NCBI GenBank assembly: GCA_905221605.1
Contig: CAJNDS010002142.1
Span: forward strand, 113,501 to 177,500
Direction: 5' to 3'
DNA from: Symbiodinium natans
Lineage: Eukaryota > Sar > Dinophyceae > Suessiales > Symbiodiniaceae
DNA length: 64,000 nucleotides
Notes under the pieces: model-generated
Told to the model about the DNA's origin: nothing
The model's input: only the letters and a program-made list of their open reading frames with translations
Databases searched by the model: none
Made by a program: the position numbers and the translations under genes
Shown here: positions 25,943 through 53,552 of the stretch, in pieces
Layout of the letters: each line of letters begins with the position of its first letter
Numbering within the stretch: the stretch's first letter is position 1

Positions 25943-28900
25943 GTATGTGGTAAACCTCCAATTAAACCCCAAGACCTCTAGGAACCCAATAAGTTGGTAA
26001 ACCCTTGCGGCTGCGCTGTGGGGAGGCGAAAACTATGCCTAACAACAACAACCTGGCTGGGCGTGAGGAGGTCAAGGCTCGATTTAGAGGGGTTTTAGGG
26101 CTCACGGTTATTAAGGATCTGGCATCTATTGGCAAGTACTTGGAGGCTTCTGGGTAGGTTTAAGATGCACTATACTTAGAGACCTTTATTATAAGGTACT
26201 TAAAACCCTACTTAGAACTGCCCTGAATCTCCAGTGAAGGAACCTTGCACCTAAACCCTAAACCCTAAACCCTAAACCCTAAACCCTAAACCCTAAACCC
26301 TAAACCCTAAATCCTAAACCCTAAACCCTAAAAAGTTGGATGAGCTCAAGCTTGATTTCAGTGGGTGGGGGTGGAGGTGGGGGTGCGGGAGAGGGGGGGC
26401 TGAAGCCGAAGCACCAGCAGCCGGAAGTAAGCCTCCTAAACCCTAAACCCTAAACCCTAAAGAACCCTTCCAGGAGCCGGCGAAGGGAGACAAGGACTTG
26501 GCGCAGGCAAAGTCTCAGGTTTCGAGCCTAAGGCGAAAGGCTTTTGGGGATTTTCAGCTCAGTAAGGCATTTGAGGGCTTCGTTTTCCAGGGTCAGGGCA
26601 TGCTCTTCGGGTCCTTTCCTTCTAAACCCTAAACCCTAAACCCCAAACCCTAAACCCCAAACCCCAAACCCCAAACCCTAAACCCTAAACCCTAAACCCT
26701 AAACCCTAAACCCTTCCTTGATTGAGGAGGGGATTGGGCTCCCCCTGGGAGGTTCAGGCGGTTGTTGCACATTGTCAACCCTAACCTGCTAGGGAGGGGG
26801 TTCAGCCCAGCGACTCCAATACCCCTTAGTTTAAGGAATATTCCTTAAAGAATAAGAGGGTTTGAGGAATATTCCTTAAATAATAAGAGGGTTCCTTATA
26901 TAGTTTAAGGAATATTCCTTAAATAATATGAGGGTCCCTTATATGGTTTGAGGAATGGTCCTTAGAGAATAAGAGGGTTCCTTAGATGGTTTATAGGAAC
27001 ACTCTAAACAAAATAAGAGGGTGCTTTATATGGCTTCAAGGAATATTCCTGAATTAAGGGATTGGTAAACCCTAAACCCTAAACCCTACAATATCGAAGT
27101 AGCGTCTCTAGTACTCCTTCATTCAACATGAGGGCCGCTACAGGCTTTAAGCCAGCTGCATGGTGCTTGTAAACACTATAAACCCTGAACCCTGGCCCCG
27201 AAACCCTAAACCCTGAACCCTGAACCCTGAACCCTGAACCCTAAACCCTAAACCCTAAACCCCAGCCAAAGGCCACGTCTCCAGCGCAAGCTCCAGAAGA
27301 GGGCAGCGAAGTGGAAAGCAACTACGACGATGAGCAGGATGCATTCGAGCAGGCGAACTTCCTGCCTTGGGGTTTAGGGTTTAGGGTTTCAGGGTTTTGG
27401 GTTTGGGGTTTAGGGTTTAGGGTTTAGGGGTCTTTTCAGCGCCTTTCAGGGTTTAGAGTTTGAGATTTAGGGGTTAGGTGATCTAGTGAAGCTTTTCGGA
27501 AGCTCAACTCCCCCCCTTGTTGGGCAGACCGGGGACGCAGTATGCGTGTGTACGTGGCGGAGTGCGCACGCCTCTCATCTTGCTTGCGTGCGCAATGAAG
27601 CTGTTCCGTAGAGCCGGGGATAGCTTGATCATCTATCCATACAAGGGGTTTATGCCATCGCAAATGCCAGACGCAGCTTGACGAAGCGGAAACGAGGCCT
27701 GAGCTCTTGAACAAAATTTCGCAATCTGCGATGAAAGAAGAACCCGTAACGTCTCACTATAACATCCTCTGTGTGTGTGGGGGAACTGTTCGGTCCAGGC
27801 ACATGTGCCGTTTAGGGTCAAGGTTTATAGGGTTCACTATCCAACTAATGCCCGCATGATGCTTGGGTGACCAAACCGCACATTGATGGCATTTTTAGGG
27901 CAAGATATGCAGGGGATGCACGGCTTTCCTGCCTGGCTTGGCACTGACGCCCCAGATCGCAATCAGGACATCTAGCAATGGGATCCAGTTTGTTTACGAA
28001 CCAGCGAAAACATGGTCGCAAGTCCAGATCTTTTCGCTCCGTGTTGGCAAGTCAGGACCTTCTTTTCCGGAACCGCAGTCTCAGAAGGGCATGTGCACTT
28101 GCAAGCGAGCATGTTGAGCAACAATGAGTTGTGCCAGAGTTTGTACCGCACCATGTCGGTGGCTTTGACCCAAAACCCTAAGCCGTTTAAGAAATGGAAG
28201 CCGGATCTGTGTAGGTGGCTTTTGATCGCTCCCTGCAGATACACTGCCTTCCCACTTCATGAGATGCTCGCAGACCGCGTAATGCGGTTATTCTTGCAGG
28301 CCTCTCACCAAACAATCGCCTCCACCTTCACTACCCCTGCTGTTTTCGAGGCATCAGCACGCCACCATTCAACGCGCACACCACCATTCAACACGCACGT
28401 GCAACTGAAAAGCTGCTCTTTTAGCTTCGCAGACACAAGGCAGACCCATTGGCTCTCTTGAACGGCTGAATGCATTTTCCAGTCAGCCTCGATTGTCCGA
28501 AACAAAAGGTAGAAAAACCCTCACTTTCCACCACCCACTCCTGTCCAGAGTGATCCTGATGTGTCTTTCGCACGTTTTGAAGGTGCCGACCTGCAACCCC
28601 TGAGCCCCCTAAACCCCCTGCAAGGATTAGGGAAGTTCTTAGGGTATAGGGGTTAAGGGTTTTAGGGTTCTTAGGGTTTTATTTTAGAGTTAAGGGTTTA
28701 GAACTGTTGCAGGAGTCGTCGGAACCGACACCGGCGCCAGTGGCATCATCGCCCTTGAGATCAGCGGCAAGCTACGACGACGAGGAGTTCGAGGCCCGAG
28801 CCATGTAGGTTTTACCTAGCCGAAGCCACATCTTCACCCGCCCGGCATGAGCATGAACTATTTTTTGGGGGTACAGGGTGTACGCATCTTGTCTGAAGTT

Positions 28901-53552: not shown

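Follow-up and report, generated by a model that had tools for sequence, protein, structure and literature searches.

A nested array of small, phase-symmetric exons that probably encodes an acidic, disordered repeat protein

Organisation of the exon array

The stretch of DNA analysed here, a window of 64,000 nt, carries 42 small exon-like blocks on its forward (+) strand between positions 27272 and 52337. We located the blocks by motif search in all six frames and partly by eye, inspecting positions 27000-55000 directly, and set their edges by hand by comparing copies. Five block types follow one another in the order F C A B D, F (C A B)x10 D, F C A B D, and the 12 copies each of C, A and B and three each of F and D that had been listed in a preliminary description of the locus were all recovered in this fixed order. 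The first larger block consists of F1 (27272-27352), C1 (28713-28793), A1 (29307-29355), B1 (30580-30626) and D1 (31125-31172). The second opens with F2 (31651-31731) and runs through units 2-11, namely C2 (32697-32774), A2 (32924-32972) and B2 (33346-33380); C3 (33486-33560), A3 (34197-34245) and B3 (34633-34673, donor uncertain); C4 (34848-34925), A4 (35510-35558) and B4 (35861-35907); C5 (36400-36477), A5 (36918-36966) and B5 (37419-37465); C6 (38047-38124), A6 (38645-38693) and B6 (38909-38946); C7 (39227-39304), A7 (39801-39849) and B7 (40078-40115); C8 (40504-40581), A8 (41006-41054) and B8 (41281-41318); C9 (41647-41721), A9 (42147-42195) and B9 (42422-42459); C10 (42846-42923), A10 (44584-44620) and B10 (45381-45427); and C11 (45997-46074), A11 (46459-46507) and B11 (47115-47161), before it closes with D2 (48099-48146). 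The third comprises F3 (49164-49244), C12 (50081-50158), A12 (51257-51305), B12 (51823-51869) and D3 (52290-52337). As D3 is the last supported exon, the array ends at 52337 and not at 53552, where its end had been placed.

Each block type keeps its phases in every copy, with 0-0 in C, F and D, 0-1 in A and 1-0 in B, which for C, A and B agrees with the preliminary description. C measures 78 nt in nine copies, 75 nt in two and 81 nt in one; A measures 49 nt in 11 copies and 37 nt in one; and B measures 47 nt in six copies, 38 nt in four, 35 nt in one and 41 nt in one. All three copies of F have 81 nt and all three of D have 48 nt. The length differences within C, A and B are whole codons throughout, as had been proposed for C and B, but the restriction to these two types falls, since A varies too, A10 being 12 nt shorter than the other copies. 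A C-A-B unit corresponds to 54-59 residues. As all larger pieces have phase 0 at both ends, the array can hold any number of units.

Exon boundaries

With the chosen boundaries, all 42 acceptors read AG, the donors are GC in 40 of the 42 blocks, GT in F3 and AC in B9 (at the homologous site), and all but one of the 42 blocks begin with G; since AG and GC edges were selected as such, the AG and GC counts are partly built in. Support that does not depend on this choice comes from the diverged copies (hand-picked: six of the 12 copies of C, A and B each, and every copy of F and D), in which identity drops a few bases past the edges. In six diverged unit pairs the exons are 0.73-0.84 identical, compared with 0.43-0.55 for the 80-nt flanks and with a background of 0.46 (sd 0.09) at which 60 unrelated pairs align. 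Five middle unit pairs have exons at 0.80-0.90 and flanks at 0.50-0.68, and two recent pairs have exons at 0.96-1.00 and flanks at 0.65-0.99, the similarity of these flanks being what would be expected of younger duplicates. The end of B is the least certain edge, because the donor of B9 is AC, B3 has no GC at the homologous donor position, so that a GC 6 nt upstream was taken instead, and B6-B11 carry extra in-frame codons past the chosen donor (AER or TER...), with other possible donors seen by eye beyond them.

Signs of selection at the codon level

Joined end to end, the 42 blocks form 2406 nt, or 802 codons, with no stop. Non-exon segments of matched lengths from the same region served as control and are open with a mean probability of 0.42, from which the joint probability of open frames is 4e-17 for all 42 blocks and 3e-9 for 21 hand-picked diverged blocks; because frames were picked for being open, up to 3^5 choices are uncorrected in these figures, and about 8e-7 is left for the 21. 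Minimal changes per alignment column, counted by codon position, number 35/45/85 (chi-square p = 3e-6), the counts deriving from related copies that are not fully independent. The proposal of a single repeat protein, which had been staked on such a codon-position bias, therefore survived this test. A dN/dS comparison that had been suggested alongside it (NG86, all pairs, which share history and are not independent tests) gave 0.42 for C, 0.15 for A, 0.33 for B and 0.34 for F. The D exons contain no amino-acid change and two synonymous differences over three pairs. Given the third-position excess, the low dN/dS, the whole-codon length changes and the open joined frame, selection at the codon level appears to be the best reading of the 42 blocks and a well-supported one.

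The same observations bear on the idea that the locus is a non-coding tandem array, conserved as DNA, in which the open frame has arisen incidentally. The units are indeed DNA duplicates, introns included, and the region is rich in repeats, but the excess of third-position changes, the whole-codon indels in C, A and B and the way in which conservation of the diverged copies stops at the AG and GC edges all disfavour this idea, and we regard it as extremely improbable. Another possibility was that each C exon ends at its own TAG as a separate gene. Reading past the C donor, an in-frame stop is met after 4-6 codons in eight of the 12 copies (C1-C6, C8, C9) and after 13-23 codons in the other four (C7, C10, C11, C12). 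With the stop placed anywhere from 4 to 23 codons past the donor, no conserved gene end lies there, which weakens this alternative to the point that we rejected it.

The AC donor of B9, the missing homologous GC of B3 and the shortened A10, which has an inserted-looking element at its acceptor, suggest that some units may be decaying. Extended to the whole locus, these features would fit an exon array that once worked but has turned into a decaying pseudogene region, its codon signal being historical. However, all 802 codons are open, the youngest copies (units 7-8 and 8-9) have a dN/dS of ~0.3, on only 4 and 8 changes, and the D exons are identical in protein though the flanks of D2 are at background identity, so that decay of the locus as a whole seems highly unlikely. 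Frame, phase, codon-position bias and the conservation of exons over introns instead lend good support to the preliminary proposal that one long acidic Pro/Ala-rich repeat protein is probably made, and we infer that the blocks are spliced into one continuous transcript that is expressed.

The predicted protein

The predicted product of 802 residues contains 19.5% Ala, 18.3% Glu and 12.8% Pro, and has a net charge of -171 and a pI of 4.05; the Uversky plot places it on the disordered side. Along its length, Pro/Ala linkers space 15 acidic Tyr...Phe motifs, one per F or C exon. The motif is SY[AD]DEDFE-like in C, from which C1, C2, C5 and C10 each depart by one residue, and NYDD...FEQ in F. In the C exon the last eight columns have a mean entropy of 0.31 compared with 0.81 for the rest, and an EQxSEEL-like segment is found in 14 of the 15 A and D exons, A10 keeping only EEL.

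A 296-residue part of the product had no significant match in Pfam. The best hit was to DSS1/SEM1 (PF05160), a family considered for its acidic-aromatic motif, and at 9.9 bits (E 1.1) it lies below the gathering score of 32.2 bits, so that membership was rejected. A 74-residue part matched no solved structure at E 10 or better and had no relative among viral contigs or the genomes of bacteria and archaea, where none was expected. This gene is mentioned in none of the titles and abstract starts surveyed in an open-access library, and the matches there to DDFE-type motifs were unrelated. Binding to partners is common among conserved acidic-aromatic motifs that are set on disordered linkers. The composition and the conservation of the motifs suggest that the product could serve as a multivalent tether or scaffold with many contacts to a basic surface of its partner.

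Extent of the gene

Three further segments on the + strand, G1 (31505-31573), G2 (48954-49022) and G3 (53475-53543), are 73-76% alike over 70-93 nt and had been taken for exons in the preliminary description. Their changes by codon position in the three + frames (8/9/11, 9/11/8 and 11/8/9) show no third-position excess, and every + frame has a stop in at least one copy. As it is conserved without a codon signal, G was rejected as a coding exon and is not counted here. When blocks 1 and 2 or blocks 2 and 3 are compared, the conservation of G stands out, the other strong intron matches nearby being telomere-like repeats. In the comparison of blocks 1 and 3, the introns that follow D1 and D3 are 88% alike as well over their first 119 nt, which suggests that the conservation of G may in part reflect recent sharing. 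Possible roles for G are an untranslated region, a splicing signal or, if the three blocks were separate genes, a gene end.

On the other side of the array, the gene may extend upstream of 27272. We scored candidate exons with a codon model trained on the 42 exons and on an open frame of the window with a PARP match (see below), with reversed sequences as controls. The candidate NDSEYGDDFEEEPEEEEDTVP (23432-23494, + strand; phase 0-0, donor GT) is acidic, has a motif similar to that of the array and scores 18.4 over 23428-23494; for comparison, the highest scores in the region 14700-27271 are 10.7 in the controls and 7.2 on the minus strand, and the forward candidates that rank next have 14.5, 11.7 and 11.2. 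A second, weak candidate, EPAKGDKDLAQAKSQ (26474-26518, + strand, phase 0-0, donor GT), scores 11.7 against the control maximum of 10.7 in the same region. Outside this region, however, scores rise to 17.9 in the downstream controls and to 15.0 on the minus strand of 1-13200, and training on acidic exons biases the model towards acidic sequence. The exon at 23432-23494 is therefore plausible rather than proven. Downstream candidates at 55313, 55856, 57800, 63436 and 63908 were rejected, the best scores being 12.8, 12.0 and 11.8 against 17.9 in the controls and 12.6 on the minus strand.

These features can also be read as three tandem genes, each of the form F-(CAB)n-D with G untranslated, that would yield separate mRNAs by spliced-leader trans-splicing. 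The blocks share order and orientation, and the conservation of G between them in the absence of a codon signal might be that of an untranslated region. F3 is preceded by an in-frame ATG at a distance of 9 codons, and tandem arrays are common in dinoflagellates (PMC11453091). However, there is no conserved in-frame ATG before F (none within 30 codons of F1 and F2) and no conserved stop after D (none within 30 codons of D1 and D2, and one in D3), and the D-to-F gaps measure just 478 nt and 1017 nt. Moreover, a blastn search of the masked window (E up to 1e-4), in which a diverged copy could be missed, gave no match to the candidate exon at 23432 among the 120 of 124 matches listed with a side outside the array. 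We therefore consider three separate genes unlikely and treat the blocks as parts of one gene in what follows.

Duplication history of the array

The array contains recent duplicates that extend through introns. The tracts 40483-41558 and 41626-42689 (units 8 and 9, offset 1143 nt) are 96.3% identical over 1077 nt, and the tracts 39703-40408 and 40899-41616 (units 7 and 8, offset 1196 nt) are 95.3% identical over 720 nt, introns included in both cases; units 7 and 9 share one tract that is 88% alike over 913 nt. In a matrix of all units, 7, 8 and 9 stand at 95-98% and unit 1 at 70-75% to all others. Mean unit identity falls from 0.86 at lag 1 to 0.74 at lag 11 and the end units are the most diverged, a pattern that would be expected of unequal exchange. 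As the tracts of units 7/8 and 8/9 are 95-96% identical with their introns, the array probably grew by unequal crossing-over within introns. Exon shuffling had also been invoked for this locus. Strictly taken, it would bring in modules from elsewhere; the evidence shows duplication in place.

The higher-order blocks carry traces of their own history. D1 and D3 are 94% identical over 80 nt downstream of the exon and only 0.53 upstream of it, so that blocks 1 and 3 share a tract absent from block 2, which arose either by later duplication or by conversion. Between D2 and its counterparts D1 and D3 one synonymous base differs, a low level of synonymous change, though over ~11 synonymous sites only, and the flanks of D2 are at background identity. 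The downstream flanks of F1 and F3 align at 0.86, from which nothing is drawn, as these 80 nt are largely TTTAGGG-like repeats. By direct inspection F resembles C and D resembles A in protein sequence, and the outer frame may therefore descend from the same kind of unit.

A repeated element at exon A10

Within the C10-A10 intron, next to the old acceptor, lies an inverted-repeat element (44255-44581, + strand) whose end coincides with the acceptor of A10, 2 nt short of the exon. Further copies occur at 671-776, 11717-11824 and 25354-25460. In three of the four copies found, the termini TGG(T/C)AGCCCAGTG ... CTGGGCT(A/G)CC are inverted repeats of one another, and the copy at 671 begins GGGTAGCC. 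Direct repeats were seen by eye as GGAAGA on both sides of 44255-44581 and as GGTTTC at 25354; the copies at 671 and 11717 have no exact target-site duplication by eye. Because GGAAGA stands on both sides of the element, the old and the new acceptor of A10 both read CCAG/GAAGA, and it looks as though a mobile element moved the acceptor of this exon. In its inverted terminal repeats and in the short direct repeat that by eye spans the A10 acceptor, the element appears close to the introners of dinoflagellates and other eukaryotes, as described in two reports (PMC7789003, PMC9860276). It differs from them in sitting at the end of a pre-existing intron, where it made no obvious new one.

Telomere-like repeats and dinoflagellate characteristics

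Short perfect telomere-like arrays are scattered through the window, 68 of TTTAGGG and 70 of CCCTAAA after merging; in a simpler count, they are present in none of the 42 exons and at least once in 25 of the 41 introns. Their orientation alternates along the window at 80 of 137 steps compared with 69.0 expected (sd 5.8; p 0.035), with p 0.057 for relative position. Pooled 6-mer counts at intron ends (348/193 vs 256/380) lean towards TTTAGGG near donors and CCCTAAA near acceptors. Counted by intron, in the 34 of 41 introns that are at least 240 nt long, the balance is 16 vs 15 with 3 ties (Wilcoxon p 0.24), and a fixed orientation of the arrays relative to the splice sites was rejected on this test.

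TTTAGGG telomeres, which are also of the plant type, occur in dinoflagellates, and 25-74% of the donors in Symbiodiniaceae are GC or GA, according to one account (PMC11453091). In a chlorarachniophyte rich in introns, the telomere repeats are TAACCC and the boundaries of the 26 introns that were examined are GT-AG (PMC12730881), and neither trait fits a locus with TTTAGGG and GC-AG. It is thus the frequent TTTAGGG arrays in both orientations and the GC-AG introns (40 of 42 donors, chosen with that in mind), rather than sequence relatives, that make a nuclear gene of dinoflagellate kind likely.

Discussion

We assign a probability of roughly 0.7 to the reading that the locus represents the repeat-carrying portion of a single protein-coding nuclear gene, probably from a dinoflagellate, that has grown by in-place duplication of phase-symmetric units and whose product is acidic and disordered. 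On the molecular level, the three-exon unit C-A-B, which has phase 0 in and out, would have been duplicated between F and D, which are symmetric themselves. The larger block F-(CAB)n-D would also have been copied to three, and the middle one would have reached n = 10 through unequal crossing-over of homologous introns. Copy number could then drift while the frame is kept and each unit stays under purifying selection, and the disordered acidic chain would present 15 short motifs with which to tether a basic partner many times over. A bolder version of this reading, which we offer tentatively and with considerable doubt, sees the locus as a two-level, frame-proof generator of repeats: with all levels phase-symmetric, recombination between repeat-laden introns would vary the number of motifs without cost to the frame, the valency of the scaffold might change from strain to strain, and a mobile element would have reset one acceptor along the way.

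Multi-exon symmetric units that are repeated in tandem within one gene are found in the triplicated exons of nebulin, the PEVK region of titin and kringle IV-2 of apolipoprotein(a). These are animal genes with known proteins, and we liken them to the present array by description, not by sequence. A further parallel is offered by the LRR genes of Tetrahymena, whose arrays of 90-bp exons vary in copy number and are attributed to unequal crossing-over, possibly with retrotransposition (PMC6564038); as here, an alveolate gene contains many copies of a small exon with fixed length and intron phase. Theirs is one 90-bp exon with phase 2 introns that encodes leucine-rich repeats in thousands of genes, whereas the present locus has a three-exon unit with an internal phase 1 intron and phase 0 ends, nested in a larger block, and its product looks acidic and disordered. 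Head-to-tail copies, some without stops between units, also make up the tandem gene arrays and polyproteins of dinoflagellates (PMC11453091); the units of those polyproteins are whole proteins, with Rubisco II attributed to retroposition, whereas the units here comprise 54-59 residues and are split by introns. The mode of growth is already known; the nested layout is unusual and the product has no match in the families searched.

If transcripts confirm this gene, it would provide a clear protist case of a protein repeat that grows by in-frame duplication of a multi-exon unit, with several stages side by side, old diverged units at the ends and near-identical ones in the middle, and it would allow the rate of array change to be measured between strains. 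The locus also cautions annotators that GC-AG exons as small as these (35-81 nt) are easy to overlook when the introns around them, as is often the case here, contain telomere-like repeats.

Additional features of the window

Searches of the window against Rfam (gathering scores) and for tRNAs returned nothing. We also looked for a spliced-leader relic and found no match when up to 3 mismatches were tolerated; at 1 mismatch, the 12-nt core has two matches compared with 0.63 expected, both within copies of the repeated element, and the relic was rejected. A second dispersed repeat family, partly palindromic by eye, surrounds GGAGGTTCATGGGTAG and its complement at 43514-43629, 23951-24064 and 24719-24763. 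An open frame of 112 residues on the + strand (16557-16892) recalls by eye the relic of a reverse-transcriptase polyprotein and has no Pfam match. Another + strand frame of 455 residues (13296-14660), apparently a single exon, matches the Pfam WWE (1.4e-08) and PARP catalytic (1.3e-07) domains.
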